Assembly: GCA_016218575.1 (NCBI GenBank)
Contig: JACRDN010000016.1
Location: 62,001 to 126,000, forward strand
Length of the DNA stretch: 64,000 nt
Direction of reading: 5' to 3'
Origin: Elusimicrobiota bacterium
GTDB lineage: Bacteria; Elusimicrobiota; Elusimicrobia; UBA1565; UBA9628
The translations under genes were made by a program, and so were the position numbers. This document shows positions 26,496 to 47,737 of this stretch, one piece after another. The notes beneath the pieces were generated by a model. The model saw only the letters and a program-made list of their open reading frames with translations. It made no database searches and was not told where the DNA came from. Numbering within the stretch: position 1 is the first letter of the stretch; each line of letters starts with the position of its first letter.

Positions 26496-26496
26496 T

Positions 26497-31749: not shown

Positions 31750-32141
31750 TCGGAACGGAGATCATAATGGTGGTGGATCCAACCGCCGAGGAAGCCATCT
31801 CGGCCCAAGGACATTGGCTAGAGCCTGCGGCGGAATTTATGCTGGTTGACAGGGCATTGCTTCAAAGCCAGGCCCGCAAGATTTTAGAGGACATCTTGAG
31901 GCCTGGCGAAAACATCCTGGGGCAAGGAAGATTGGTTCTTCTTAGAGGAAAAATTCTCGCCTGGGAATTCCAAGTCATGGGAGACGACAGGCTCAGCACG
32001 CGGCTCGGCGGGGGCTTTCACTATTTTTACATTGACGCCGCCAAGGGGAACCCCGTCAGGGTTGATGTCCAGAAGGAAGGGGCCAGGCATGTCCTATTTG
32101 ACTTTCTTGACGACCTTCACTTAGGCCAGCCGGAACCATAA
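31353..32141 (+). CDS. C-terminal part of the frameshifted exported protein (unknown function)
   Basis: 262 residues from a TTG codon, in the frame that continues the 30322 gene. There is no promoter or ribosome-binding site here and the region directly upstream in the same frame reads RRRFFKRLLSNKQVSW, so this is most likely the second half of one gene. Recognisable features are a charged helix (DQLEREEELACAYF) and a beta-rich part with GTEIIMVVDPTAEEA and GGGFHYFYIDAAKGNPVRVDV, which looks like a small alpha/beta domain, not named. Its 3' end overlaps the converging TldD-like gene by 25 bases. Confidence 0.55.
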   Translation: MLSNKQVSWETSRRSPAAPASRLPQEDASMDPPPDEPRFPADQLEREEELACAYFPAGGSAKNKLERRIALLAARHVLNRRADFGLPPGAVPLVKTIHFLADGKARIIFAPQEVQSKTQEDEEKRPPSRIPMIGTEIIMVVDPTAEEAISAQGHWLEPAAEFMLVDRALLQSQARKILEDILRPGENILGQGRLVLLRGKILAWEFQVMGDDRLSTRLGGGFHYFYIDAAKGNPVRVDVQKEGARHVLFDFLDDLHLGQPEP

Positions 32142-34078
32142 AGCGACTCATAAGACGACCGCGTCATGGCCGGGGCCATGGTCTCTTTCTCCAGGGACGG
32201 GCCCGCCAGGCTCCTGAGGGCCGCCTCAAGCCGCCGCAAGGACTCCCCCAAGGCCGGCAGGCTGGGGCCCAGGACCTTCACCTCAATGATCATGTCCGGA
32301 CCTTGTTTGAGCGCTCGCACCGCCGCCACCTCCTTAAAGGGCAGAGGCGGCGGCTCCCTACGCCAGCCTTTGAGAATGTACCGCTCCACCTGGACATGGG
32401 GAACCCGGGGAATGGTCGGGATGCGCCGGCCGCGCTCCCGGGAATCGCCCGGGGGCGGGGACAGGACCGGCGCGGTCTCGGGCCTGGCGCTCGAGCGCTG
32501 GGCCTCGGCGTCGGCCAAAAGCAGGCTCGGGGAAATGACGGAAAGCGGGACGTTGAGGGAAACGTTTTCGGCCCGGGCGTCGCCGCCCGCGGCCAAAGCG
32601 TTGTTCATAAGAGCCAAGGGAGTGCCCACGAGATCCAGGTGGCGCACCATGGTCATTTTCCCGGTCTCGGCCTCCACGAGATAGACCAGGCGCGGGATGA
32701 GGCGGATAGAGACCTGCCCCCGGCTCTCCTGATTCTGCACCACCGCCTGGAGCTTTCGCACCCAAATGCCGTACGGCTTTCCTTGGAGCCTGCACTGCCG
32801 CCTCAGCTCGGCCAGCAGCTCCTCCTGGGATAAAGGCTTGGCGGAGCTGAATATCAAAGTCCCCGGAGACCCGCCGACCCAATATCCCGGAGAGGCCCGG
32901 CCGTGCCCGTTGGAGCGGGGAAACCCCTTCACCGAATAGCGGGAAGTCAGGAACCCCTTGAGGGTTCCTCGAGAGATAAGCTGGACCTTCTGCGCCGGGA
33001 CGCCCTGGTCGTCATAGTCGTAATGCCCCGCCAAGGCGAGGCCTCCGAAGGAGGGAACCGTGGGATCGTCCTCCAGGCTGAACTCGGAAGCGAGAATCCG
33101 AGAGCCAAGCTTGCCGCGAAAGGTCTGGGCGCCTCCCGGGTTGCGCAGCTCCTCGCCGGAGAGCCTTAGGCCCCAGGCCAGGACAACGCCGGCCGCGACC
33201 GAGGGATCAAGAAGGGCCGGGGCGCTGAACGGGGAGGTGCTGGGGGCCGTCTTGAGGGCGCTCAAATCGCTCAATATGTCCCTGGCCGCCCCCTCGATCT
33301 CAGCGGAGGACGGCAAAGCGGAGGGAGAGACCGCCGCGAACTGGCGGCTCGCGGAAATTCTGAGGCCGTCCTCCGCCAAGGCCACGGCCTCGAGCTCGAT
33401 CTCGGCCACATCGCGGCCCGAGTCCACTCGCCCGCCCTCGCTGCTCCTCAAGCGCGACCACTGCCGGTCGAGGCGCACCTTGACCTGGGCGGAAAGAAGT
33501 CCGGAGTTCTCCCGAAAAATCCGACTGCCCCGGCGGCAAAGCTCAGACAGGGCCGGAACGCTCCAGGACGAGGCGGGCCGGTCCATGAGCCTCTGGCGGG
33601 CGGGCTCTTGAGAAAGATCGCCGGCGTCGTACTCGGCCGGGCCGCGCTGGACGCGCAGGGCCTGCTTTCTCAAAAAATCCCCGACCGCGCCCGTGTACAT
33701 CCCGTCGAAAAGCCTCCACAGCCCGTGCCGGAGTGCTAAGGAGTCGTCCTCCATGGAGAACTCCCCGCCGATGAAAATATTCGGAAGCCCGAGAGGATGG
33801 TTGTCGAGGCCGGGGGAGCCCACGCGCAGGTCCGGGGTGACCAAGCGCTGGCGGACCGTGGCCTCGAGCTCGGGGGCTCCCATGGCGCAGCGCTGCCACC
33901 ACATCTCCTGGTCCGTAACCGTCACGCTCGCGAAATAGGGCTTGGGATACCCCTCGGCCTGCATGGCCATGGCGCGGGAGAGCTCCGTGTCTAAGGCGGC
34001 CTCCAACATCTCGGAGGCCGCCGCCTGGGAATATCCCGCCAGTATACAAGCAAAAATCAGAAGTAGTCTCATCTTCAT
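32117..34078 (-). CDS. Exported TldD/PmbA-family protein with lost metal site
   Basis: 653 residues: a clear signal peptide (MKMRLLLIFACILAGYSQAAA), then a TldD/TldE fold. Comparison with the paralogue at 35273-36928 shows the same order of blocks (GYPKPYF, SFGGLALAGHYDYDDQGVPA, KGFPRSNGHGRAS, LVGTPLALMNNALAAGGDA). Where active TldD has HExxxH this protein reads GVVLAWGLRL, and the late cysteine ligand is replaced in LNVPLSVISPSLLL. It should therefore be a catalytically dead partner, as TldE is for TldD in known heterodimers. About 150 extra C-terminal residues have no counterpart. It is the last gene of the superoperon; ATG 34078 overlaps the previous stop. Confidence 0.82.
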   Translation of the reverse strand: MKMRLLLIFACILAGYSQAAASEMLEAALDTELSRAMAMQAEGYPKPYFASVTVTDQEMWWQRCAMGAPELEATVRQRLVTPDLRVGSPGLDNHPLGLPNIFIGGEFSMEDDSLALRHGLWRLFDGMYTGAVGDFLRKQALRVQRGPAEYDAGDLSQEPARQRLMDRPASSWSVPALSELCRRGSRIFRENSGLLSAQVKVRLDRQWSRLRSSEGGRVDSGRDVAEIELEAVALAEDGLRISASRQFAAVSPSALPSSAEIEGAARDILSDLSALKTAPSTSPFSAPALLDPSVAAGVVLAWGLRLSGEELRNPGGAQTFRGKLGSRILASEFSLEDDPTVPSFGGLALAGHYDYDDQGVPAQKVQLISRGTLKGFLTSRYSVKGFPRSNGHGRASPGYWVGGSPGTLIFSSAKPLSQEELLAELRRQCRLQGKPYGIWVRKLQAVVQNQESRGQVSIRLIPRLVYLVEAETGKMTMVRHLDLVGTPLALMNNALAAGGDARAENVSLNVPLSVISPSLLLADAEAQRSSARPETAPVLSPPPGDSRERGRRIPTIPRVPHVQVERYILKGWRREPPPLPFKEVAAVRALKQGPDMIIEVKVLGPSLPALGESLRRLEAALRSLAGPSLEKETMAPAMTRSSYESLYGSGWPK

Positions 34079-35280
34079 GCCTTGAGGCGCCTCAGACATC
34101 GCTCGAGACCCACACTGGCGTACAGGATGAAAAAGGGCATCATGGCCAGGCGATACCGGATCATGGTGAATATCATGGCATAGACCAGGCTTTCCGATAA
34201 AAGGAAAAGATAGACCCAGGCCGATCCCGGAGGCTTGAGGAAAGCCCATATCAAGCCCAGAAACCCCAGGGGAATGATCCAGCCGTCGCTCAAGAGGCTG
34301 GCCCAGAAAACATGGCGGTAGGCGATATCGTAGCCTCGGTCCCGCGGCGCCAACCGCCATTCGTCCCAAAACAGGCGCCAGGCGGCCAGGCGCAGGAAGG
34401 CGGCCGGGTGATCCCGGACGCGCTTGAGGCCCTGCCTCCAAAAGTAGCGGTCGCGGGCGACGTCGTCCAGGTCCCGCCCGCCTTGGTAGCCCGGGTCCAG
34501 ACTTAGGATTTTCGTCTGCTCGAGGGTTCCCCCGAGCTCCTGGGGCACCACCTGGTAAATGTAGAAGTTCGTTCCCCCGCCCTCGGTGTTGCCGAGGATC
34601 AAGCGGTTAAAGCTTATCCAATTGCGCAGCGGCCAAAGCCCATAAATGGCCGAAAAAACGGCAAGATAGATGGCCACGAGCCTCAGGCCGCGCTGGCCCG
34701 TCCCGCGCAGAGTCCATAGAAATCCGGCGGGAACGAGGATCAACGCGAAAGGAAGGACGGTGGCCTTGGTGAGAACCGCAGCCGCGGCCGCGGCTCCGGC
34801 GGCGGCGAAAAGAAACGGCCGTCTCTCCCGCGAGGCCCGTTCCAGCCAATACAGGCAGAAAACCGCCCAAAAGCAGAGAAAAGTCTCGCGCAGGGGCTTG
34901 GCCGCGTAATATATAAAAGGGGGATAAACGGCGGCCAGGAAGGCGGCGCCTAGCGCTGTCCGCTCTCCATGAAGGGAGCGGGCCAGGGCGTGCAAGTAGA
35001 ATATCATCCCCACGCCAAAGCAGGAGTGGACGATCAGGAGAATCCAATAGCTCGCGCCGAAGAGCCTGAAGAACGCGGCCAGCACGATCGGATAACCCGG
35101 CTCTCGCGCGGCCGTGGGCCGGCCGTCCTCTCCGAGAAGCGCGCCGCGCTCGGCCAGGGAGCGCGCCAAGTCCACGTAGCTGTCCGTGTTGTAGAGAACG
35201 GGGGGTGCTGCGCGCAGGCCGTAACCCAGGCGCAGGGCCAGGGCCCCCGCTAGGACCAGCCACAGCCGGCGGTCAGTCAT
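34075..35280 (-). CDS. GT-C fold glycosyltransferase (GT39-like)
   Basis: 401 residues, about ten membrane segments. The first loop has PPVLYNTDSYVDLARSL and REPGYPIVLAAFFRL, the acidic and aromatic motifs of GT39-type enzymes, then KPLRETFLCFWAVF. It lies between the two exported TldD-family genes, overlapping the upstream one by 8 bases (ATGACTGA) and the downstream one by 4 (ATGA). Such tight placement suggests that the glycosyl transfer and the TldD pair act on one exported product. Confidence 0.78.
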   Translation of the reverse strand: MTDRRLWLVLAGALALRLGYGLRAAPPVLYNTDSYVDLARSLAERGALLGEDGRPTAAREPGYPIVLAAFFRLFGASYWILLIVHSCFGVGMIFYLHALARSLHGERTALGAAFLAAVYPPFIYYAAKPLRETFLCFWAVFCLYWLERASRERRPFLFAAAGAAAAAAVLTKATVLPFALILVPAGFLWTLRGTGQRGLRLVAIYLAVFSAIYGLWPLRNWISFNRLILGNTEGGGTNFYIYQVVPQELGGTLEQTKILSLDPGYQGGRDLDDVARDRYFWRQGLKRVRDHPAAFLRLAAWRLFWDEWRLAPRDRGYDIAYRHVFWASLLSDGWIIPLGFLGLIWAFLKPPGSAWVYLFLLSESLVYAMIFTMIRYRLAMMPFFILYASVGLERCLRRLKA

Positions 35281-36928
35281 GCAGGGGCGAGGGAAGAAGC
35301 GGCGGCCGGCTGCGATCCTCGGGAATCCTTTGGAGCTCCACCTCTGAGACGAGCACGCTCGGGGCGATCTGGCTCACGGGAATGGAGCCCGACTCGGCGC
35401 CGCAAAAGTAGCCGCTGGAAAGCCTCGGGTCGTTTCCCGCGGCCGTGATGCGGTTTAAGATCACCAAGGGAGTGCCCACCAGGCTCACGCCGCGCACCAA
35501 AGTCATTTCTCCCGTCTTGCCGTCCACCCGGTAGACAAATTGCGGCCGCACCTCCAAGGTTTGCGCGGCCTGGCGGGAATTGGGGTTTTCCCCTCCAGAG
35601 GAGCCCACCAGCCAAAAGCCGTAGGGCTTGCCCGACTTGCGTATGAGGGCCAGGAGTTCGGCCTTCAAGGCCTCAGGGCTTCGAACTCCCTCGGCGCGCA
35701 CGATGAGGTTGGCCATGCGTCCCGTGGGCCGCTTGTGGAAGTCCGAGCGGCCGTGCCCGTTGGAACGCTTGAAGCCCTTGGCCGGCCAGCGCGACATCAG
35801 GAAGTTTCTCAGGACCCCGCGCTCCACCAAGGCCACGCTTCGCGCCGCGACTCCCTCGGAGTCGTATTGATAGAAGCCGGGCAGGGGGCGGCCCTCGAAG
35901 CTCTCCAAAGTCGGGTCGTCCCAGAGGCTCAAGAACTCGGGAATGATTCTCTTACCGACCGAGTCCTTGAAGACCTGGCTCTGCTGGGGGTCCCGCTGGC
36001 GCTGGCCCTCGAGCTTGTGGCCGAGGGCCTCATGGAATAGAACGCCGGTGAACTCCGGGTCCAGTATCGCGGGGGCCGCCATGGGCTCCTGCACCGGGGC
36101 CCGGCGCAGCTCCAGGAGCTTCTCGGCCAGGGCCTTTATCTCGCCCTTGAGCTCCCGCTCCGGGGGAAGCTCGCTTAAATCCCTCATGGTCCAGGTTTTG
36201 AAGACCCCCATTTTCATGCCGTCCTCGGCTCGCGTGCTGGCCCAGAAGCTGAGGGCGTTGGGCACGCTCTCGGCCGGGGTGGAAAGGAAAGTCCCCTCGC
36301 TCGTGACGAGATAGCGCCAGGGCGAGCGCAGGCGCACCGACACTTGGGAATCGTAGATTTTCGGATAAGGCTTCAGGGAGAGGCTCACGTCCTTGGCGAG
36401 TTTCTCGGCCCGGGCCAAGTCGAAGGCGGCCGGGGTTCTGTCCAGGACCAGAACGGCGGGAGGCTCCTGGGTGAAATCCGCCAGAGGCTCCTCCACGTAC
36501 TCGACGGCCCTTTTGGCCTTTTTCTCGAGATAGCCGGAGATGGCACCCTTATAGGCGTCGTCCGTCAGCCGCCAAAGGGCCTGGCGCAAGGCCTGCGGAT
36601 CGGCCCCGACGGTAGCCTGCCAGCCTTGGAAGGCAAGATCGGTGTTGTCGAGCTCGGTCGAGCCGAAGCGCGCCTCCACGTAAAGGCTCTGGAAGCTCTC
36701 ATGCTCGCGACGCAGGATGGAGCCCAGGGAGGCAACCCACTCCCAGCGAGTCTGGTCCACCAGGCGGTAGGCCATGAAATACGGCGGGCCGAAGCTTTCG
36801 TGCCTCAGACCCTTGAGAGAGCGCTCCATTTCCGCCCGCATCGGGCTGAAAACCGCGGGTCCAGACGCCGCCGCGTCTGGATGACAGGCGAAAAGCAAGA
36901 AAGCGAGAGCCCATCGAGCTCGCCCCAT
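35273..36928 (-). CDS. Exported TldD-family metallopeptidase with intact zinc site
   Basis: 551 residues. The N-terminus has a signal peptide whose end, LLFAC, could be a lipobox, so the protein may be a lipoprotein. The catalytic HEALGH motif is at 299-304 (H299, E300, H304) and the C-terminal metal-ligand cysteine is C509 in YFCGAESGSIPVSQIAPS. TldD/TldE complexes cleave unstructured peptides through a narrow channel and mature peptides such as microcin B17, in the cytoplasm; an exported version implies a periplasmic or surface substrate. ATG 36928 follows the previous stop directly (TAGGATG); an upstream ATG at 36955 is possible. The inactive paralogue is two genes downstream. Confidence 0.88.
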   Translation of the reverse strand: MGRARWALAFLLFACHPDAAASGPAVFSPMRAEMERSLKGLRHESFGPPYFMAYRLVDQTRWEWVASLGSILRREHESFQSLYVEARFGSTELDNTDLAFQGWQATVGADPQALRQALWRLTDDAYKGAISGYLEKKAKRAVEYVEEPLADFTQEPPAVLVLDRTPAAFDLARAEKLAKDVSLSLKPYPKIYDSQVSVRLRSPWRYLVTSEGTFLSTPAESVPNALSFWASTRAEDGMKMGVFKTWTMRDLSELPPERELKGEIKALAEKLLELRRAPVQEPMAAPAILDPEFTGVLFHEALGHKLEGQRQRDPQQSQVFKDSVGKRIIPEFLSLWDDPTLESFEGRPLPGFYQYDSEGVAARSVALVERGVLRNFLMSRWPAKGFKRSNGHGRSDFHKRPTGRMANLIVRAEGVRSPEALKAELLALIRKSGKPYGFWLVGSSGGENPNSRQAAQTLEVRPQFVYRVDGKTGEMTLVRGVSLVGTPLVILNRITAAGNDPRLSSGYFCGAESGSIPVSQIAPSVLVSEVELQRIPEDRSRPPLLPSPLHD

Positions 36929-36929
36929 C

Positions 36930-39473
36930 CTACTTTTTCGAAGGAACGATTTCATAACCGGAAGAGACAGGGCTGCCCACTCCAAGGGAAAACGGCGCCG
37001 GCGCGACGCGCAGAAGGCCCAAGGATTGCGCCTTCTGGTAGAGGGCCGACAGATTTCTCTTGGCCTGCTCGTAATGGGAATCCAGTGAGAGGGCTTTGCG
37101 GTAGGCCCTCTCGGCGCCTTGGAGGTTATCCATGAGGAAGTAGGCGTTGGCCAGATTAGTGTAGGCCTCGGCCGATTCGTGCCGGTGGACGGAAAGCTCG
37201 CGCCCGGATTCTTGAACATAACCTTGGTACGCGAGCAGCGTGCTCCTCAGGAAAGTATTCCTGAGGAGCACTGCATCAATCTCGCACTTCTCGGCCGTGA
37301 TGGCCGCCTCGAACACTCGCGCGGCCTCGGCGAAGCGCTTCTGGACCATGAATATCTGCCCCATGCGGAAGTAGTTCGGAGCGTAGACGGGATCTATCGC
37401 CTCGTAGAGCTTGAAGCGGTTCAAGGCCCTTTCCAAGTACTTCGGAACCTCCTCGGGATGGCCGTGGCCCATGGCCCATTCCGCCCGGCGCATGTGCAAG
37501 GTCCCCACCTGATGGTGCATCTGGACGTAGTTGGGAGCCAGGCGCCGGACCTCGTTGAAGACGTCCAAGGCCCTCTCGTAGTCGTCGCGGGGCTGGTTGT
37601 CCCTGTCCCCCCAGGCCGGATTGTACTGCTTGTCCATGTTGAAGCGGTCGAAGAAGACGTTGCCCATGAAGTAGAGGGACATCACGAAGTTGGGATTGTT
37701 CTCCTGGACGATCTGGTAATGATGCAGGGCTTGGTCCCATTGCCGCTGCTTCGAGAAGAAAATGCCGACGTTGTGGTGCACGTCGGCCTTGAAATAGCCC
37801 CAGAATATCCTCAGGGGATAGAGGGCCGCCAGCACGGCCAAGGCCACGGCCGGCTTCTCGGAAAGGTAAACCAGCTTGACGAAGAGAAACGTCATCGCGA
37901 GCACGCAGGCAGAGAGCACCGCCCAGGCCAGCCACCACTGGAGCACATCGCCCTGGTAGACGATGCGTTCGACCGGGCCCTGAAGATCGGCGAAGTCCCT
38001 GAAAAGGAAGAAGGCGGCCCAGGCCAAGCCGCCCCAGGCCGCGAGACGCGCCGGCCATACTAGAAATTCCGAAAAAGTTTGGACGAGAGAGGCCTCGCCT
38101 GGGACAGGCGCGGTCTTAACCTCGCGCCTGTCATTCATCTCATACAGCCCACTTCCCCTTGCCAAAAACACGATCATCCCGCAGAGAAGCCCCAAGTACA
38201 CCCCAGAGGACACGAAGCGCAGGCTCACGTCGAAGCAGTTATGCCCGAGCATCCCCATCAAGGCCACGAGATACCCCGTCAGGTCGTAGGCGCGCGGGGG
38301 CGGCCGGCCGTCCTTGAGGCTTAAGGTGGTGGTCAGCTGCCCAAGAGAGCGGAAGCCCACCACCATGGTGCTGAGCATCATCCAGATGAAGATGCCGAAC
38401 CCCAGGAGGCCGTTGTCTAGAATCTGCTCCAAGTACTCGTTTTCCGAGTGGTCGGTCTCGGTGTTGTGCTTGCCCTCGATGTGGAATATGGGCGGTCGGC
38501 GAAAGGCCGGATAGGCCGGCGGGAAGCTCCCGATGCCGGTTCCGATCCAGGGCTGGGTCATGATCAGCTCCCAGGTCGCCTCCCAGGTGAACAGCCTGAA
38601 ATTGACCGAGACGATGCGGGCGCTCAAGTCCTTGGCCACGAAACCCACCAGCCCCAGGATGCCCGCGGCCGCGACTCCCAGGATCCATTTGCGGTAAGGA
38701 GCGGCCTGCTCCTTGAAATAAGTGAAGGCGATCGCTCCGAAAAGAAAAATCACCATGGCGAAACCCACCCAGGCCCCCTTGGTGCCGGTCATGATGAGGT
38801 CTATTAGCAGCAGCGTCATGAGGGGGAGCAGCCTTTTTTTCCTGGTCTTGAGGTATTGCGTGAAAAGAATGGGAAACAGAATGACCAGAAAGTCCGCGAA
38901 GAAATTGGGATTCCCGTAGGTCGAGAATATGCGCTGGCCGAAGGCCCCGCGCCAAATGAAGGGGTCTATGCCCTTGCCCACGCCGGGGGGAAACCAAGTG
39001 TTGTCGATGATCTGCCAGAAGCCGTAGACCACGGCCACCCAGCCGGTCATGACGAGGATCCTCGTCAGCCTATCGGCCGCGGCGGCGTTGAACTCGCAGA
39101 TGACGATCAAGGCCACGGTCATGAAGAAAAAGTGCCGGATGAAGAAATCCACGCTCGCCATGGCGTAGGGGGAATGGGTGAAGGAGAGCACTCCCACCGC
39201 CAAATAGGCCAGGAAGGGGGAGATGCAGACGAGGTCGCTGCGGCTTAAAGGGGCTCCGCGCGCCTCGATGAGGCGGGCCACCCAGAATACCAGCAGGGCC
39301 AAGCCCCCCATCTGCATGACCGTGATCTTGACCTGGGCGGAGTCGTAGGTGCGCAAATAGAACAGGGAGGAGATCAGGAAATACAGGATGGGAAGCCACC
39401 AGGCGATGATTTTCCTGGCGAAGAGTTCCACCTCCTGGGATCGGCCGTTGGCCTGTCCGGCTGCGGATTTCAT
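36930..39473 (-). CDS. O-antigen ligase/polymerase (WzyC family) with C-terminal TPR domain
   Basis: 847 residues. The N-terminal 540 residues form about 12 membrane spans. The large periplasmic loop has TYGNPNFFADF, GTGIGSFPPAYPAFR and HNTETDHSENEYLEQILDNGLLG, the conserved O-antigen ligase (Wzy_C) block, with Arg and His residues used for lipid-linked glycan transfer. From about residue 560 the chain is a run of TPR helices (for example EAYTNLANAYFLMDNLQGAERAY) on the periplasmic side, likely a protein-docking site. It should polymerise or ligate the glycan made by the operon. It carries a perfect 14-bp hairpin (37240-37271). Confidence 0.9.
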   Translation of the reverse strand: MKSAAGQANGRSQEVELFARKIIAWWLPILYFLISSLFYLRTYDSAQVKITVMQMGGLALLVFWVARLIEARGAPLSRSDLVCISPFLAYLAVGVLSFTHSPYAMASVDFFIRHFFFMTVALIVICEFNAAAADRLTRILVMTGWVAVVYGFWQIIDNTWFPPGVGKGIDPFIWRGAFGQRIFSTYGNPNFFADFLVILFPILFTQYLKTRKKRLLPLMTLLLIDLIMTGTKGAWVGFAMVIFLFGAIAFTYFKEQAAPYRKWILGVAAAGILGLVGFVAKDLSARIVSVNFRLFTWEATWELIMTQPWIGTGIGSFPPAYPAFRRPPIFHIEGKHNTETDHSENEYLEQILDNGLLGFGIFIWMMLSTMVVGFRSLGQLTTTLSLKDGRPPPRAYDLTGYLVALMGMLGHNCFDVSLRFVSSGVYLGLLCGMIVFLARGSGLYEMNDRREVKTAPVPGEASLVQTFSEFLVWPARLAAWGGLAWAAFFLFRDFADLQGPVERIVYQGDVLQWWLAWAVLSACVLAMTFLFVKLVYLSEKPAVALAVLAALYPLRIFWGYFKADVHHNVGIFFSKQRQWDQALHHYQIVQENNPNFVMSLYFMGNVFFDRFNMDKQYNPAWGDRDNQPRDDYERALDVFNEVRRLAPNYVQMHHQVGTLHMRRAEWAMGHGHPEEVPKYLERALNRFKLYEAIDPVYAPNYFRMGQIFMVQKRFAEAARVFEAAITAEKCEIDAVLLRNTFLRSTLLAYQGYVQESGRELSVHRHESAEAYTNLANAYFLMDNLQGAERAYRKALSLDSHYEQAKRNLSALYQKAQSLGLLRVAPAPFSLGVGSPVSSGYEIVPSKK
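37240..37271. repeat. Perfect inverted repeat inside a coding sequence (14-bp arms, 4-base loop)
   Basis: GTGCTCCTCAGGAA at 37240-37253 and its exact complement at 37258-37271 flank AGTA. It lies in the TPR part of the ligase gene and encodes VLLRNTFLRST. Confidence 0.9.
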
Positions 39474-40156
39474 TGCCCCACCCCCAGCATCTCGCGGGCC
39501 AACTGCCGAATGAAAACCATTCCAGTGGGCAAAGACTTGGCCGTGCTCTTTCCCCCCAGGCGCTGGCCTTCCCGCGTCGCGATCTCGGCCACGCGCAGGC
39601 CCTCCTTCATCGCCCGTATGGACATTTGATATTCGATCACGAAGCCGTCGGCGTCGCAGGCCATCTTGGCGAAGGCCGAGCGCCGCACCGCCCTGAACCC
39701 GTTGATGGCGTCGGTGATGTACGATCCCCTATTCCAAAGGATGTTCGCGATCAAGGTGAAGGCCTGGTTCACCCATTTGCGCGGCCGCAGGCACTGCGCG
39801 TCCTCCTCGTTGAAGGCCCCCTTCATCATGCGCGAGGCGATGGCCATGTCATAGCCTTCCTCGAGCTTCTCGAAAAGGCGCGGGATGTCCGCGGGATCCT
39901 CGTTGCCATCGGGGCTAAAGAAAACCAAGGCCTCCGCCGAGGTCGCCTCGGCCGCGACCCGGAAGGCCACCCCCCTGCCGCGGCGGGGCTGATCCAGCAC
40001 GCGCAGGCCCTTGCCTTCCAGGAACTGCCGCGTGCCGTCCAAGGAGCCTCCGTCCACCGCGAAGAACTCCTGGGCCGAGTGGCGCGGAATCTCGTCGAAA
40101 ATCTTGGGCAGGGCCTCGATCTCGTTGAAAGTAAGAAGAACCAGGGCCCTTCTCAT
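39470..40156 (-). CDS. GT2 glycosyltransferase, dolichyl-phosphate mannose synthase-like
   Basis: 228 residues, one GT-A domain without membrane spans. Motifs: ALVLLTFNEIEALPKIF, AVDGGSLDGT, VFFSPDGNEDP (metal site), SRMMKGAFNEED and ITDAINGFRAVRR. ATG 40156 overlaps the epimerase stop and its own stop overlaps the ligase start, both as ATGA. Probably makes a polyprenyl-phosphate sugar used by the GT-C enzymes of the same operon. Confidence 0.88.
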   Translation of the reverse strand: MRRALVLLTFNEIEALPKIFDEIPRHSAQEFFAVDGGSLDGTRQFLEGKGLRVLDQPRRGRGVAFRVAAEATSAEALVFFSPDGNEDPADIPRLFEKLEEGYDMAIASRMMKGAFNEEDAQCLRPRKWVNQAFTLIANILWNRGSYITDAINGFRAVRRSAFAKMACDADGFVIEYQMSIRAMKEGLRVAEIATREGQRLGGKSTAKSLPTGMVFIRQLAREMLGVGQ

Positions 40157-41148
40157 CTCGCGAGCCCCAAGACCTCTTGGTTTTCCCGGCACCAGGCGAT
40201 CGTCCGCGCAAGTCCTTCCTCGAGGCCTACCTGGGCCAAGAAGCCCATCTTCTGCCTGGCCTTGCTGGTATCGCAATTGCGCCGGGGCTGGCCAGAGGGC
40301 TTGGCCGCGTCGAAAATGAGCTTGGCCCGAGAGCCGGAGACCTTCAGTATCAGCTCGGCCAAATCGCGGATCTTGATCTCCTCGTCGGTTCCGATATTAA
40401 CGGGATCGCACTCGGCGCAGCGCTCGGCCGAGTCCAGAAGCCCGCGCGCCAAGTCCTCGACGTAGAGGAAAGCCCGGCTCTGCGATCCGTCCCCCCAAAC
40501 CAGGACGGGATCCTCGCCCCCGAGAATCCGGCCGATCAAGGCCGCGATCACATGGCAGTCCTGGGAGCCGAAATGGTCCCGCGGGCCGTAGGCGTTGTAG
40601 GGCCTGGCGATGGCCACCGTCATGCCGTGCTCCTGGTGGTAGGCTCGGCCCAGGTACTCGGCCATGCGCTTGGCCCAGCCGTAGCCCTCATTGGTGATCT
40701 CGGGGCTGCCTTTGAAGCCCTCGCCCTCGGGCGTGGGAATCATCGCCTCCCGGGGATAGACGCAGGCGGAGCTCACGGCCAGGAATCTCTCGACCCCGGC
40801 CAGGCGCGCGGCCTCCATCATGTGGCAGGCCATGAGCATGTTCTCCCGGAACATGGTCGCGGGATGTTCGGCGTTATAGGCGACCCCGGCCACGCGCGCG
40901 GCGAGATTGAGCACGACCTCGGCTCCCTGGCAGGCCTTGCGGCAGTCCTCCGGAGAGCGGAAATCGGCCCGCAGAAGCGAGATGTCGCTCCTCACGGCCT
41001 CGAGGTTGGCCTCCCGGCCATGGGAGAAATTGTCGGCCACTGTCACGCGCACGCCTTTGCCCCGGCGCAGGAGCTCCTCCACCAGGTGGCTCCCGATAAA
41101 GCCCGCCCCGCCCGTCACCAAGACTTTTTTATTGTCCCAAAACCCCAT
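40153..41148 (-). CDS. NAD-dependent epimerase/dehydratase (extended SDR)
   Basis: 331 residues. Extended SDR with VLVTGGAGFIGSHLVEELL (NAD binding, residues 9-27), NLAARVAGVAYNAEHP, the catalytic serine in VSSACVYPRE and YGWAK with the catalytic Tyr/Lys. The RVAGVAYNAEHP phrase and SACVYP resemble GDP-L-fucose synthase and GDP-mannose epimerases, so a GDP-sugar substrate is likely; this would fit the GDP-heptose made elsewhere in the window. It starts 3 bases after the GT2 stop. Confidence 0.87.
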   Translation of the reverse strand: MGFWDNKKVLVTGGAGFIGSHLVEELLRRGKGVRVTVADNFSHGREANLEAVRSDISLLRADFRSPEDCRKACQGAEVVLNLAARVAGVAYNAEHPATMFRENMLMACHMMEAARLAGVERFLAVSSACVYPREAMIPTPEGEGFKGSPEITNEGYGWAKRMAEYLGRAYHQEHGMTVAIARPYNAYGPRDHFGSQDCHVIAALIGRILGGEDPVLVWGDGSQSRAFLYVEDLARGLLDSAERCAECDPVNIGTDEEIKIRDLAELILKVSGSRAKLIFDAAKPSGQPRRNCDTSKARQKMGFLAQVGLEEGLARTIAWCRENQEVLGLAR

Positions 41149-41151
41149 CCT

Positions 41152-42327
41152 TTAATCCTCCGGCTTTTCCTCCAAAGCCTTGGGCAGGTGCGCCACGATG
41201 TCCAAGGTCGTCCCGAAGCAAAACAGCACCGTGCCTAGGATCACGGCTAGGCCCCCGGCCAGGACGTAGATCCAATGCAAGGTGATCCGCCCGCTCGAAA
41301 CATACTCAAGGATCGTATCCGAGTTGAGCAGTATCCCGCCCAAGGCGAGCCCAAAGCCCAAGAGGACCGCTCCCTCGCGCAGGCGAGGATATTCAAGCCA
41401 CCCCGCCGGCCGGCGCACCGCGATGTTCGAGGCCGTTTGAGCCACCATCCCGAAGGCGAGAGAGATCATGGAGCAGACCATCAAGGTCAAAATCGTGAGC
41501 AGGCGGTAAATCATGTCCTCGCGGAGTTCGCGGTGGTCCCAATAATACTTGACCGGACCCGCGCCGTAGCCCAAGGCGACCAGGCCGAAGGCGACGCCCA
41601 GGGAACCGAAGATCTTCAAGGGATGGTATGAAAAAATGATGCCCAGGATCACCCTGAGAAAGCGCAAGCCGTCGGCCAGCACGTTGAGCTTGGAGCGGCC
41701 CCGCCGCTCGAAGTAGGGGATGGGAGCCTCCACGATGCGCAACCCCAGGCAGGCGGCGCGCGCGGTCATGGCCGGCGTGAAATGCAGGCCGGAGGGCAGG
41801 GGCTTGAGCCGGCGCAGGAGCTGGCGCTTAAAAAGGCGCATGCCGCTGGCCGAGTCGGAAACCTCAACCCCGGTCAGCCTCGAGATGAGCCAGCCGTAGA
41901 AGAGGTTGCCGGCGTAGCGCAAGCCGGGCATCTGGGACTCCTCGTGCAGACGATTTCCCACGGCCAGATCCGCGTGGGCCCGCACCAAGGCTTGGTAAAG
42001 GTCCGCGAAAGCCGCCGGGTCGCAGGTGCCGTCGGCGTCGAGGAAGGCCAGATAATCCCCCGAGGCCCTCTCGAACCCGCTCAAAAGGGCCCGGCCGTAG
42101 CCCAGGTTCCTGGGGTGCGCCACGAGCCGCACCTCGGAGAACTTGGCGATCAAGGCCTTGGTCCGGTCGGCCGAGCCGTCGTCCACGGCGATCACCTCCA
42201 CGCGGGAAAGCCCCGTCCTCCGGCAGAGAGGCTCGCGCGCGGCCAGGCAGCGAGACAGAATATCCTCGATCGCCTGCTCCTCGTTGTAGGCGGGGACGAC
42301 GATGGAGAGGCTTTTGCCTCGGCTCAT
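41152..42327 (-). CDS. GT2 glycosyltransferase with C-terminal membrane domain (polyprenyl-phosphate sugar synthase-like)
   Basis: 391 residues. GT-A domain to about 230: LSIVVPAYNEEQAIEDIL, AVDDGSADRT, FLDADGTCDP (DxD) and VEVSDSASGMRLF. Then four or five membrane segments (about 230-380) of the GtrB/DPM1-with-tail type. It would build a lipid-linked sugar at the inner membrane. It overlaps the upstream gene by ATGA. Confidence 0.88.
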   Translation of the reverse strand: MSRGKSLSIVVPAYNEEQAIEDILSRCLAAREPLCRRTGLSRVEVIAVDDGSADRTKALIAKFSEVRLVAHPRNLGYGRALLSGFERASGDYLAFLDADGTCDPAAFADLYQALVRAHADLAVGNRLHEESQMPGLRYAGNLFYGWLISRLTGVEVSDSASGMRLFKRQLLRRLKPLPSGLHFTPAMTARAACLGLRIVEAPIPYFERRGRSKLNVLADGLRFLRVILGIIFSYHPLKIFGSLGVAFGLVALGYGAGPVKYYWDHRELREDMIYRLLTILTLMVCSMISLAFGMVAQTASNIAVRRPAGWLEYPRLREGAVLLGFGLALGGILLNSDTILEYVSSGRITLHWIYVLAGGLAVILGTVLFCFGTTLDIVAHLPKALEEKPED

Positions 42328-43721
42328 GGCGCTCCCAGGCGCGCGGCCAAGCGGTCGGCGACCTCGTAGCCCATTTTCATGGCCACGTGGGTGTTGACGT
42401 ACTGGAACCGCCCCTGCCTGCCCGCGGTCTCGACGTTCTCAAGCCCCGCGAGCGCCGCCAGCAAAGTCCTCAACGCGTCCTCGTAGCCCAAGGTGTACAT
42501 GGGATGGGCGTGGCGCGCCCGGAAAACGTGAGACTCCTCGATCTCGGCCCGAGTCAGAAGGTTCTCGCGCACCAGATCCGCGACCACGGCTTGGGTCGCG
42601 GCCGAGTCGTCGCTCCAGAACCGGTCCCGAGGATCGCAAGCGATCTCGGCCACGAGCAAGGTGCGGCCCGCCGGCTCGATCTTGAAGGCGAAATGCGCGA
42701 GATCGGTGATTCTGTTGAAGGAATGCTCCCTAAAATACATGAACGAGGCCGGAAGAACCTTGGGGCGGCGCACCTTGAGCCCCACGAAGACGATGGCGCG
42801 AAAGCGCAGTTGGGCGGCGGCGGCCTCGACCTCGGCGCCCAAGCCGGGGCTTATGGCCCCCGCGAACTCGTTGACGGGCAAGGTGTTGACCACACCTCGG
42901 CAGGCGAGCGCCTCCTTGCCCCGCGGGCCCAGCGACAGGACCTCGGCCAGGCGCTTGCCTTCGCGCCTCAAGCCCGAGACCTCCGTTGCCAGGCGTATCT
43001 CGGCCCCGGCGGCCGCCAAGCGCTCCCCCATCCTGCGGGTGATCAGGGAAAAGCCCTCCTCGGTCGTGTAAAGAGGCCCCTCCACTTTCTCGACGTAGCC
43101 CCGCGTCGACAGCGATGGACGCGCTCGCGCGAGCCCGCGCCGGGCAAAGGCCGAGAAGCCTTCAAGCCATTCTAGGATATTGAGGCGCGGAATGCGCTCG
43201 CGGGCGAACGCCGGGGAAAACTGCGCGGGCGGGATTCCCCACACCCGCAGGATGTAGTCCTTGAAAAAAATCTTGTAGAGGACGTCTCCATAATAGCGCA
43301 GCAGCACCGTCTCCGAGTTCTCGACCTTGGGCTTGACCAGAGCGCCCTCCACGAAGCGGTAGGCAAAGCTCGCCCCCGCCATGACGATGGTCCAGGGAGG
43401 AAGCTTGAAGAGGACGTCCGAGACCCTGAGGGGAAACTGGAAGTAGTTGCCGAGAAACTTGATCTGGATGGTGCGCCGGTAGGGGCGCAGTTCATCGCCC
43501 ATGATGGACTTGATGTCGGCCAGGATTTGAGGGTCCGTGGTGTGGAAAACGTGCGGGCCGTATTCGTAGACGCTCCCGCCGATGCGGATCCCGCCGGCCA
43601 ATCCCCCGACGTGGTCCTCCCTCTCCAGGAGGATCACCGAAAATCCCAAGGATTTGAGCCGCCATGCCGCGCAAAGCCCCGCGCAGCCTCCTCCCAAGAC
43701 GACGACGGGGGGGGCGGTCAT
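42324..43721 (-). CDS. FAD-dependent oxidoreductase, UDP-galactopyranose-mutase-like
   Basis: 465 residues. It begins VVVLGGGCAGLCAAWRLKSLGF (flavin Rossmann), then EREDHVGGLAGGI and YEYGPHVFHT, the phrase that places it near UDP-galactopyranose mutases and related ring-contracting flavoenzymes. Later blocks KIFFKDYILRVWGIPP and VNTHVAMKMGYEVAD support this. In a glycan operon it may form a furanose sugar or oxidise a nucleotide sugar. Paralogue of the 8156-9478 gene. Overlaps both neighbours by ATGA. Confidence 0.85.
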   Translation of the reverse strand: MTAPPVVVLGGGCAGLCAAWRLKSLGFSVILLEREDHVGGLAGGIRIGGSVYEYGPHVFHTTDPQILADIKSIMGDELRPYRRTIQIKFLGNYFQFPLRVSDVLFKLPPWTIVMAGASFAYRFVEGALVKPKVENSETVLLRYYGDVLYKIFFKDYILRVWGIPPAQFSPAFARERIPRLNILEWLEGFSAFARRGLARARPSLSTRGYVEKVEGPLYTTEEGFSLITRRMGERLAAAGAEIRLATEVSGLRREGKRLAEVLSLGPRGKEALACRGVVNTLPVNEFAGAISPGLGAEVEAAAAQLRFRAIVFVGLKVRRPKVLPASFMYFREHSFNRITDLAHFAFKIEPAGRTLLVAEIACDPRDRFWSDDSAATQAVVADLVRENLLTRAEIEESHVFRARHAHPMYTLGYEDALRTLLAALAGLENVETAGRQGRFQYVNTHVAMKMGYEVADRLAARLGAP

Positions 43722-44821
43722 GCCCTGAACTTCTTGACCATCTCGACGACCTTCGAGATGTCGGAACCGCTCAAGGCGGGATGAAGGGGGATGCTCAGGC
43801 CTTCCTCGTTCAAGCGCTCGCAGACGGGAAGCTTGGCCCGGGATTCATAGATGGGATTCAAATGCAGGGGATGGTAGCGCAAGGTGGTGTAAACGCCGTT
43901 CTGATAGAGATATTTGGCCAAGGCGTCGCGCCTTCCGCCCAAGACGCGCAGGCAGTAGGTGAAATAGGAGTGCCGGTCGCCTTGAGGCGCCTCCTGGGGA
44001 CGCAGGAGCCAGGAGATTTCCCTGAACTCCTGTTGGTAATCGTCCCAGATGCGCCTGCGCCTGGTCTGCATGGCCTTAAGCTTGCGCAGTTGGGCAAGGC
44101 CAATCGAGGCCGCGATGTCGGAGGGCAGCATTTTTGGAAAAAAATCCGCCACCTGGTATTCCCACCAGCGCTCCTTGTTGGCCGAGGCCTCGAAGCCCGA
44201 CTTGCCGATGCCGCAGTAGCGCAGCTGCCGCGCCCTTTGGACGAGGGCCGAGTCCCGGGCCGTGAGGCCCCCTCCCTCCCCCATGGCCAGGTTCTTGACG
44301 GCGTCGAAGCTGTAGATGCCGATGTCCCCGAGGCCGCCGCAGGAGCGGCCGCGCCTGGCCGAATCCACGGCGTGGGCTGCGTCCTCCACGATGGGCAGGC
44401 CGAGCTTGGCCAGCTCCTCGATACGGGCGGGAAGCCCCGCGTAGTGCACGACCATCACGGCCCGAGTCCGGGGAGTCATGGCGCGGGAGACCGTCTCCAC
44501 GGTCAGGTTATGCGTGTCGTAGTCCACGTCGCAAAAAACCGGGACGCAGCCCGCGAGAACCACGGCGTGGGCGCAGGCGATCCAGGTAAAGGAGGGCACG
44601 ATCACCTCGGAGCCCGGCGGCAGGTTCAGGAGTTTGACCGCCATGTAGAGGCTGTTGGAGCCCGAGTCGAGGAGCACAAAGCCGGGCAGGCCCAATCTTT
44701 GCGCAAAGGCCTTCTCGAAGGCCGCAGTCTTGGGACCTATCCCCATCCATTGGGCCTCGAGGCTCTGGCGGACCTCCGCCAGCTCCTCGGGACCCACCAA
44801 GGAACCGAAAACGTTGATCAT
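43718..44821 (-). CDS. DegT/DnrJ/EryC1 family aminotransferase
   Basis: 367 residues. PLP fold type I sugar aminotransferase with DSGSNSLYMAV at 52-62, VEDAAHAVDS at 145-154 and YSFDAVKNLAMGEGG with the Schiff-base lysine K176. FGSLVGPEELAEVRQ at the N-terminus is typical of enzymes acting on 4-keto nucleotide sugars. The next gene upstream is an acetyltransferase, a common pairing for N-acetylamino sugars. ATG 44821 overlaps that gene (ATGA). Confidence 0.92.
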   Translation of the reverse strand: MINVFGSLVGPEELAEVRQSLEAQWMGIGPKTAAFEKAFAQRLGLPGFVLLDSGSNSLYMAVKLLNLPPGSEVIVPSFTWIACAHAVVLAGCVPVFCDVDYDTHNLTVETVSRAMTPRTRAVMVVHYAGLPARIEELAKLGLPIVEDAAHAVDSARRGRSCGGLGDIGIYSFDAVKNLAMGEGGGLTARDSALVQRARQLRYCGIGKSGFEASANKERWWEYQVADFFPKMLPSDIAASIGLAQLRKLKAMQTRRRRIWDDYQQEFREISWLLRPQEAPQGDRHSYFTYCLRVLGGRRDALAKYLYQNGVYTTLRYHPLHLNPIYESRAKLPVCERLNEEGLSIPLHPALSGSDISKVVEMVKKFRA

Positions 44822-45330
44822 GCGGTGGCTTGCCTCCGGTAACGGCAGGGGGAGAAGCTCCCGAGCTCGAGCTCGAGGTGATTTTCGGCCTCGCGCGCGA
44901 CACGGTAGCCGCATTTCTCATACCAACCCAAGGCAGGATTGCCCTTGAGCACCAGGCAGCCGATGCGCGGGCAGCGCTCGGCCAATATGTGGCTGCACAG
45001 CAAAATCATGGCCGAACGCATGAGCCCCCGCCCGGAGGCCTGGGGAGCGGCCATGACATTGTAGACGTCGGCGGCTCCCTTGACGAGCCTAAACCCCAGG
45101 CAGCCGAGCGACTCGTTGACCATGAACATGAAATCATCCGGCCGCGCGAGGTAGCCCTCGAACCACTCTCTCTGGCCCCGCTCGGTAATCTCGCCCTGGA
45201 AGAAGAAAGCCGAGCGGTTGGCGTTCTTCCACAGCCTGAGCCGCTCGAGGTCGCCAGTGTCAATGGCGCGCAAGGCCGCGGGGGGTACCAGCCCTTCCGA
45301 GGACAGTCGAAGGCTTTTGGGGGTCGTCAT
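44818..45330 (-). CDS. GNAT-family N-acetyltransferase
   Basis: About 170 residues from ATG 45330. The body is a GNAT fold like the WbdO/PseH group: RAIDTGDLERLRLWKN, VNESLGCLGFRLVKG, VMAAPQASGRGLMRSAMILL (acetyl-CoA loop in motif A) and NPALGWYEKCGYR. It probably acetylates the amino sugar formed by the aminotransferase next to it. Start uncertain: from the ATG, the gene overlaps the fused glycosyltransferase gene by 71 bases; a TTG at 45273 (LRAIDTGDLER) would cut the overlap to 14 bases and still leave the full domain. Confidence 0.82.
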   Translation of the reverse strand: MTTPKSLRLSSEGLVPPAALRAIDTGDLERLRLWKNANRSAFFFQGEITERGQREWFEGYLARPDDFMFMVNESLGCLGFRLVKGAADVYNVMAAPQASGRGLMRSAMILLCSHILAERCPRIGCLVLKGNPALGWYEKCGYRVAREAENHLELELGSFSPCRYRRQATA

Positions 45331-47737
45331 GGCGGCCGTGGCGATGATAGATATAAATGGCTTGATTGGCGAAAAAAGCGCTGTCCCGCGGCCGGGACCA
45401 AAGCGCCCGCCACGGCGAGAACGCCCGGGCCCCATCATAATTTTTTTGCGCCCAGTTGTCTATCGCGGCTTTTCCTATTTCATCGAGCAACAGGTAGTTG
45501 GGAAGTTTTCCTTTAGGCAGCTCCTCCGGCCGCGAGAAAATGGAGAGGGCGTAGCGGTCGTAGCGCAGCGCCGGGGCGTGGGCCGGTTCGGGGTAGCGGG
45601 CAAGTCCCAGGCTTTCGCCCGCGGGAACATGGGCCTCCAGCCAATCCGCGGCCTGGGCCCAGGTCGAGCCCGGCCCACCGTCGCGGCGCATGTTTTCAAG
45701 AAGAACGAGGCTTTCCAGGCCGCTCGTGAAAAAAATCAGCGCCAAGGCCCCGGCCCGAATCCCCCGCGGCGCGCGCCACAAGAGAGCCGCGGCCAAGGCG
45801 GAGCCCAGGCCCATCAGGGGATAGAGAAGACGCAGGAAGGACGAGTCCAAGGGAACCCCGCCCAAGCGCAGCCATATCAATGCGAAACTCCCCAGAAAAA
45901 AGCAGGAGAGGATTCTTCCGGGGCCTTTCCTGCTCGCTCCCCAAAAGACGCCCAAGCCCATGGCCGCGGCTAATACCGGCCCCAGGCCCTCGGCCGCGGC
46001 CTTGGGAAGCCTAGCTAACGCGGTTAAGTGGAGGCCCAGCCGCGTGGGAGAGTAGACTTCCAGCTCCCAAGCAAAGTCTTTATAGGAGGAAATCAGGTAG
46101 GGGTTAAAGAGGACGAAGAGGCAGAGCCCCAGGGCCAAGCCGCCCAACGCCCACGGCCGCTCTTCGGCTTGGTTTTTCCGGGCCCAAGCCCGGAAAAACC
46201 AAGCGACTGCAGGCCCTCCCGCGAAAAAAACCAAGGCCATGTTGGAGCCCACCGCCATGCCGCCGCATACCCCGCAGGCCAGGTAACGCGCCGCGGACGC
46301 GCGGCTTTGAATGAGAGCCGCGGCGTAGGAAGCGGCCAAAGCCCAGAAAGCCGCGTAGGGGTGGGGCTTGAGAACATGCGAGTTGTGGACGACCGCGGGG
46401 CTCAGCAGGAAAAATAGAGCGGCGGCCAGCCCCGCCCCTCTGCCGGAGAGCTCGCGGCCCATGTGGTAGACGATCAGAAGGCTCGCCAATTGGAAAATAA
46501 GTATGAAAAGGCGGCCGCAGAGGTACAGCCGTCCCATTTGCTCCGGGTTCCGGAGATAGAAGCTTAGGTCCGGGGTCAGGACCGCGGCTTTGGTCCAGGA
46601 CAAGACCTGCAGGAACAGGCCCAAGGGATAGACGAAGGCCCCTCCGTATTGGGCATACAAGGGCTTGAACTCGAGCCTCCAAGGCCGCATTTGGGACAGG
46701 ATGATGAAGGATTTTTTCTCATCTGGATTGGCGGACTGCACCAGAAAGGACCTGTAGGAGTTGATGAGCGGCGGAGGCGGGAAATCCCAGCCCGGTGGGA
46801 TCTCCACCAAGCCTTTGACGTAGGTGACGGGCTCCTCACGGCGCATCTCCCGGTGCGAACGTCGGATCTCCCGATAGAGGCCCGCCCAATGCTCGGCCAT
46901 TTTATCGGCGGCTTCCTGGGAGAGGGGCCTTCCCCCGGGCAGAATCCTCAGCCGCTCCTTTCCAGGAAGACCCCAGCGCAAGCCCCAAAGCCCGGCGCCC
47001 AACCCCAGGAGCAGGACCGCCGCCGGGGCCGCGAGCGCGAAAACGCCCGAAAGCAGGATTTTGAGCTCCCACATCATGCGCAGGTAGGACTTGGCCAAGG
47101 AAGCCACGCGGGCCTTGGAGGCGCCCCCGCGGCGCGCGTGGTAATGGAAGGGAATTTCGCGGACCTTGCCGCCGTTCTTGATTATTTTGGCGAGAATCTC
47201 CTGTTGGACGGAAAAATCCCCATAGTGAAGACTCAACCCTTTCAGGGCCGAGGACTTGTAAAGCCGAAATCCCGAGGAGGCGTCACGGATGGGAAACTCC
47301 AAAAGCCAGCTCGTGGCCCAGTTGAGCGCCCGGCTCAAGAGCCAGCGCGACCAGGAGAGCTCGGCCGAGCCTCCGGGGGCGAAGCGCGAGGCCGCCACGA
47401 GATCCCAGCCCTCCCGACTCTTCCACAGCTCCCGGATTTCGGAGCAGGGATGCGAGCTGTCCCCGTCCATGGCCAAAATGTATTCCCCCCGCGCCGCCTC
47501 GAAGCCCTCGGCCAGGGCCATGCCGAAGCCAGGTTTTTTTTGGGGCAAAACGACGGCCCCCCCTTCCCGGGCCGCGGCCGCGGTTTGGTCGCGCGAGCCT
47601 CCCTCCACGACCAGTATCTCGTGGGACTCCACGAGCCCGGCCAAGGTCGCATGGATCTCGGGAAGGAGGACGCGCAGGCTCTCCTCCTCGTTGATCGCTG
47701 GGATGAGGACAGTAAGACTAACGGCGGAAGAAGGCAT
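45260..47737 (-). CDS. Fusion of GT2 (DPM1-like) and GT-C glycosyltransferase
   Basis: 825 residues. Residues 1-250 are a GT2 domain (LTVLIPAINEEESLRVLL, VVEGGSRDQT, AMDGDSSHP with the DxD, FPIRDASSGFRLY). After a membrane segment at 250-270 follows a GT39-like multispanning part (about 370-700) and a soluble C-terminal domain with WLEAHVPAGES. The fusion joins a donor-making enzyme with a donor-using one in a single chain. The start ATG lies 20 bases inside the end of the upstream gene. The last 25 residues are basic and low in structure and overlap the acetyltransferase gene. A perfect 17-bp hairpin is embedded (46167-46204). Confidence 0.85.
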   Translation of the reverse strand: MPSSAVSLTVLIPAINEEESLRVLLPEIHATLAGLVESHEILVVEGGSRDQTAAAAREGGAVVLPQKKPGFGMALAEGFEAARGEYILAMDGDSSHPCSEIRELWKSREGWDLVAASRFAPGGSAELSWSRWLLSRALNWATSWLLEFPIRDASSGFRLYKSSALKGLSLHYGDFSVQQEILAKIIKNGGKVREIPFHYHARRGGASKARVASLAKSYLRMMWELKILLSGVFALAAPAAVLLLGLGAGLWGLRWGLPGKERLRILPGGRPLSQEAADKMAEHWAGLYREIRRSHREMRREEPVTYVKGLVEIPPGWDFPPPPLINSYRSFLVQSANPDEKKSFIILSQMRPWRLEFKPLYAQYGGAFVYPLGLFLQVLSWTKAAVLTPDLSFYLRNPEQMGRLYLCGRLFILIFQLASLLIVYHMGRELSGRGAGLAAALFFLLSPAVVHNSHVLKPHPYAAFWALAASYAAALIQSRASAARYLACGVCGGMAVGSNMALVFFAGGPAVAWFFRAWARKNQAEERPWALGGLALGLCLFVLFNPYLISSYKDFAWELEVYSPTRLGLHLTALARLPKAAAEGLGPVLAAAMGLGVFWGASRKGPGRILSCFFLGSFALIWLRLGGVPLDSSFLRLLYPLMGLGSALAAALLWRAPRGIRAGALALIFFTSGLESLVLLENMRRDGGPGSTWAQAADWLEAHVPAGESLGLARYPEPAHAPALRYDRYALSIFSRPEELPKGKLPNYLLLDEIGKAAIDNWAQKNYDGARAFSPWRALWSRPRDSAFFANQAIYIYHRHGRHDDPQKPSTVLGRAGTPRGLARH
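46167..46204. repeat. Perfect inverted repeat inside a coding sequence (17-bp arms, 4-base loop)
   Basis: GCTTGGTTTTTCCGGGC at 46167-46183 and its exact complement at 46188-46204 flank CCAA. It lies in the GT-C part of the fused transferase and encodes AWFFRAWARKNQA. Confidence 0.92.

Follow-up and report, generated by a model that had tools for sequence, protein, structure and literature searches.

The window, by which we mean the whole 64,000-nucleotide stretch of DNA that was analysed, comes from a 2.8 Mb genome (G000) of the Elusimicrobia, a little-studied bacterial group. A run of surface-glycan genes on its minus strand closes with four genes that overlap at their ends: a gene for a Wzy_C (O-antigen ligase/polymerase-like) and TPR protein (Wzy_C-TPR; 36930..39473), gene A (35273..36955), a GT-C (PMT_2) glycosyltransferase-like gene (34075..35280; PF13231, E 1.3e-11), and gene B (32117..34078). 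The Wzy_C-TPR gene shares its last 26 bp with the start of A, and the GT-C gene shares 8 bp with A and 4 bp (ATGA) with B. The upstream surface-glycan genes (39470..48932, minus strand) encode GT2 enzymes, a NAD epimerase, a FAD oxidoreductase related to PRK07208/UDP-galactopyranose mutase, and two DegT/DnrJ aminotransferases. A first-pass annotation had described two TldD-family genes flanking a GT-C gene, and we confirmed this layout: A (E 4.7e-33, 114.7 bits) and B (E 2.7e-22, 79.5 bits) both match PF19289 above its cut-off of 22 bits, and a PMT_2 protein is encoded between them.

Three further genes of the window are without a Pfam match. The convergent gene adjoining B (30322-32141, plus strand) has a signal-peptide-like N-terminus, and its coding signal changes frame near 31200-31400, so either the gene is frameshifted or the assembly contains an error. 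The other two are neighbouring genes at 24795-27942 (plus strand), the first of which also starts like a signal peptide.

Gene A encodes a protein of 560 residues, predicted to be an exported, active metallopeptidase of the TldD type. The most likely start is at 36955 (MKSFLRKS..., which lines up with MRSF... in relatives); 36928, where the first-pass annotation began the gene, is a later in-frame ATG. Residues 1-30 (36866..36955, minus strand, as are all positions within A and B) form a putative signal peptide with the cut expected after ...DAAA. We considered whether A is a lipoprotein, but relatives do not conserve the possible lipobox (LLFAC24), and we treat A as an ordinary signal-peptide protein. 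The zinc motif HEALGH (residues 308-313, with H308, E309 and H313) lies at 36017..36034, and C518 (35402..35404) aligns, against 5nj5 and relatives, with Cys454 of E. coli TldD, a zinc ligand (PMC5810440). The motif and the cysteine had both been seen earlier, the latter as C509, which becomes C518 when counted from the 36955 start. Further along the protein is a SNGHGR motif (35747..35764), which is kept in active and dead copies alike.

Gene B encodes a protein of 653 residues with a candidate signal peptide at residues 1-21 (34016..34078), and we read it as an exported TldD-like pseudo-peptidase. At the position of the zinc motif it aligns as VLAWGLRLSGE (33152..33184), which is one residue shorter, and the region known as the 'clamp' is shortened (ENVSLNVPLSV, 32537..32569) and is missing the ligand cysteine. 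All three zinc ligands, both histidines and the cysteine, are gone. The earlier description of B as lacking HEALGH and cysteine is therefore correct for the ligands and incorrect for cysteine in general, because B has four other cysteines away from the ligand position. B also carries an extra C-terminal domain of ~107 residues (32117..32440), which occurs in only part of the group of loci to which the window belongs (the window's group); it is common to eight loci of that group and is predicted to be a small alpha/beta domain.

Structure prediction places both proteins in the TldD/E family over their full length. We built AlphaFold2 models of the monomers only and compared them with the PDB by Foldseek. 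The model of A (pLDDT 93.7) has E. coli TldD as its best match, with a TM-score of 0.72 by query and 0.80 by target, and matches TldD chains with TM-scores by target of 0.75-0.80. The model of B (pLDDT 90.1) matches TldD and TldE with a TM-score by target of about 0.77 (0.75-0.78 for TldD chains), and neither model matched any solved structure besides TldD/TldE at E < 0.001. Both models thus have the two-domain TldD/E fold. Among 53 A copies, PF19289 was found in all 53 and PF19290 in five, and a Pfam search detected the N-terminal domain PF01523 in none; because the structural match nevertheless runs the whole length, the N-terminal domain is predicted to have the same fold and to have diverged past the Pfam profile. 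The scores against the NCBIfam TldD equivalogs are likewise far from their cut-offs (93.9 bits against 635, and 55 against 513). TldD is a cytoplasmic peptide-trimming enzyme. Its zinc ligands (HExxxH plus Cys) are present in A only, and its lack of a signal peptide is shared by neither protein, A and B both having signal-peptide-like N-termini. Canonical copies exist in the same genome as well, an active TldD on contig C23 and a dead TldE on contig C20. Separately, one relative carries two adjoining, very divergent TldD/TldE-like genes in addition to its ordinary TldD/TldE genes (L175; G009:C34, about 44468-46008). They are of the canonical kind, one being active and the other dead, and could be part of a peptide-processing cluster.

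The pairing of an active with a dead exported copy is conserved. The exported family was found in 43 of the 57 genomes searched (the window's own genome and relatives). In 40 regions taken from relatives, each pair consists of an A copy with HExxGH and Cys followed by a B copy with no ligand on the same strand, and every pair inspected had this order, which is accordingly not unique to the window's genome. The zinc ligands are present in 40/40 A copies and lost in 38/38 B copies, two of the B copies ending before the Cys region, while the SNGHGR motif is retained in both. The paired genes usually abut or overlap, with the start of B overlapping the end of A by 4 bp in 14 loci. In an even sample of the phylum, the family occurred in 42 of the 46 genomes that belong to the same class; 41 had exactly two copies, genomes of ~1.4 Mb among them. 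It occurred in 0/54 genomes of the other Elusimicrobiota classes. Given the PF19289 E-values and the active-then-dead order in about 40 of about 40 pairs, the active/dead pair is far beyond chance. We also considered whether B is a decaying pseudogene and ruled this out, because B is intact across the class, with 26-53% identity to the window's B.

Export is predicted for nearly all members. Using as criterion a 12-residue hydrophobicity above 1.6 on a simple scale, we found a hydrophobic N-terminus in 38/40 A and 35/38 B copies, as opposed to 2/33 canonical TldD/TldE proteins; the copies that fail have long linkers or a short signal, or are fragments. Judged from sequence, the signals are near universal, and A, B and their orthologues are probably exported by signal peptides. 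The claim that both TldD-like proteins bear signal peptides therefore extends to nearly all orthologues, and that of an exported active/dead pair analogous to TldD/TldE gains from the conservation of both order and signals in relatives.

The link to glycan genes is far narrower. The first-pass annotation had taken glycosyl transfer as the key to the pair's function and had proposed maturation or turnover of a secreted glycopeptide, suggesting a search for co-occurring small peptide genes. In the window's group, A directly adjoins the Wzy_C-TPR gene at 16 loci or more, and at one additional locus that gene is found a few kb upstream of A; no other neighbour is conserved there. The Wzy_C-TPR gene was absent beside the pair elsewhere in the class, as it was in every other phylum examined. 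Of the 21 loci in this group, about 7 have a related GT-C gene separating A from B, so the TldD-GTC-TldD order does recur in other genomes, but it is local to this group, and the GT-C gene is a local insertion. Outside the group the neighbours of the pair, or of the single gene, are housekeeping genes that vary from lineage to lineage (uvrA, uppP/bacA, folD, panE-like, dnaG, dapL-like and other unrelated genes, assigned by reading sequences rather than by family search). TldD-family domains are shared with enzymes of RiPP clusters (biphenomycin, ammosamide); those enzymes sit in peptide gene clusters, whereas the 21 loci of the window's group share no conserved small ORF around the A/B pair. 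A glycan link as a general rule is ruled out, being confined to one group. Since it is local, the neighbours elsewhere are unrelated and no peptide gene accompanies the pair, we regard placement in the operon as a local event, and the function is to be sought in the pair itself.

These neighbourhoods bear on two other explanations. A and B could be dedicated to a secreted glycoprotein or glycopeptide of the neighbouring glycan operon, trimming the acceptor's N-terminus before or after glycosylation by Wzy_C or GT-C. The proximity of the Wzy_C-TPR gene to A and the overlaps among the four genes agree with this, but the restriction of the link to one group, the lack of a conserved peptide gene near the pair, and a GT-C insertion in only about a third of that group's loci make it rather improbable. 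Because of the same three observations, glycopeptide maturation is a possible but unsupported guess that would apply to one family at most. The second explanation concerns the chemistry: A could be an exported amide hydrolase acting on a non-peptide substrate, for example as an N-deacetylase of an envelope sugar or of a small thiol conjugate. Some TldD-family enzymes, of secondary metabolism, are reported to be N-deacetylases (Vobruba 2022, as cited in PMC10885120), so peptide hydrolysis by A is not certain, and glycan-gene linkage in one group would suit such an activity. Most members, however, are not linked to sugar genes, and the modelled fold and zinc site are those of the peptidase TldD; we therefore give this explanation a very low probability.

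To look outside the phylum, we scanned one genome per species for a single conserved pattern and obtained 346 relatives. The best 80 of the 346 include Dadabacteria, Deltaproteobacteria, Bdellovibrio, Myxococcales, Nitrospinota and Zixibacteria, as well as Acidobacteria, Bacteroidota, Kapabacteria and a Gammaproteobacterium. Many relatives, among them Myxococcota, Bdellovibrio, Dadabacteria and others, have the active copy only, and whole-genome searches of most of these genomes turned up no further exported member, so an active copy can occur by itself. A-B pairs occur elsewhere in Acidobacteria, Bacteroidota, Kapabacteria, Gammaproteobacteria, Edwardsbacteria, and four genomes of the Myxococcota sample.

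The occurrence of A alone in single-copy genomes is also what would be expected if A were homodimeric everywhere and B were a separate non-catalytic protein, acting in substrate capture, regulation or as a chaperone, that merely stays beside A. The TldD of Sulfolobus solfataricus, reported to be active as a homodimer (Hu et al. 2012, as cited in PMC5810440), is a precedent for this and a model for the single-copy exported members, although as cited there it is canonical and has no export signal, unlike the exported family. Against a separate B stand the strict A-B adjacency with overlaps, the co-retention of both genes across the class and the precedent of TldE, and we consider it unlikely.

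The trees bear on where the dead partners came from. In them the exported proteins group as a single clade, set apart from TldD plus TldE with support of 100/100. Within it, A1 and B1, from the window's group and some other Elusimicrobia, lie close to each other and to single-copy proteins, while A2 and B2 (other Elusimicrobia and other phyla) form a second set. Orthology of B to TldE is ruled out, because B falls inside the exported clade and TldE groups with TldD. Fewest changes on the tree require two losses of the zinc site inside the exported clade, or three when TldE is included. Forcing all B copies into one clade was not rejected with the first sampling (AU p 0.134) and was rejected with a second, denser sampling without canonical rows (AU p 0.016); because the group was defined only once the first tree had been inspected, these p-values are indicative only. 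On this basis a single origin of all dead copies is disfavoured. The catalytic columns shared by A1 and A2 should, if anything, favour one origin in the trees. Taken together, these comparisons make two separate origins of dead partners within the exported family likely, and the exported dead copies seem to have an origin distinct from that of TldE, which is itself thought to be a TldD copy with a lost active site (PMC5810440). Two Elusimicrobia loci, L194 (G048:C42) and L101, have one exported copy and no B. In the tree L101 is basal in the A1 clade, and it may therefore date from before the duplication or have lost its B.

The closest known system is E. coli TldD/TldE (MEROPS M103; PDB 5NJ5). 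It is a hollow heterodimer that is active only as such, with the metal in TldD alone and the shell completed by TldE; peptides are held by main-chain contacts and only unfolded chains are admitted (PMC5810440). A and B resemble it in predicted fold, in the HExxxH motif with a distant cysteine, and in having one active and one dead partner. A further likeness is the 'clamp', a region that is defined in TldD and absent from TldE (PMC5810440): around the ligand cysteine it is shortened in B of the inner window group, although B1 copies nearer the base retain it at full length. Unlike E. coli TldD/TldE, A and B have export signals, no detectable PF01523, a clade of their own and adjacent genes, and B, in contrast to TldE, descends from the exported family.

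Because the parts of a TldD/E system are present here together with export signals, we propose that A and B together make up an exported TldD/E-type peptidase of the envelope, one subunit each, B being its own evolved dead subunit, and we hold this to be somewhat probable. Both proteins would be secreted by their signal peptides and, by analogy with TldD/E, would join as a hollow heterodimer in the envelope. A would hold the single HExxGH...Cys zinc site, and B, once active, would form the other half of the shell. Short or unfolded peptides would enter through a narrow channel and be trimmed by A with little sequence preference. Single-copy genomes would have a homodimer, and a heterodimer would form where a dead copy took over one half. 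The analysis itself shows the sequences with their export signals, the predicted folds, the gene overlaps, the conserved pairing of active with dead copies, the distribution, and the descent from an exported family distinct from TldD and TldE; assembly as a heterodimer, activity as a peptidase, the substrates and the location (periplasm or outside) are inferred. The general task may be envelope housekeeping, clearing or trimming peptides or unfolded N-termini, with the pair now placed, in the window's group, in an operon with the Wzy_C-TPR surface-glycan enzyme. Neighbourhoods outside that group offer no functional hint, which counts against the proposal. To the broadest version we give little credence: in it, an envelope-side TldD/E counterpart would exist in many phyla, 'one active, one dead' would have arisen independently of TldE on two or more occasions, and the counterpart would have become dedicated, in the window's group, to products of the Wzy_C-TPR glycan operon.

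Our literature search, which left out most subscription papers, found no paper on exported TldD proteins. The pair would represent an unstudied envelope peptidase that almost an entire bacterial class has kept, even in its small genomes. With its single active copies and its active/dead pairs, the exported branch may offer natural replicates of active-site loss, and it raises the question of why an enclosed peptidase would repeatedly give up one of its two active sites.
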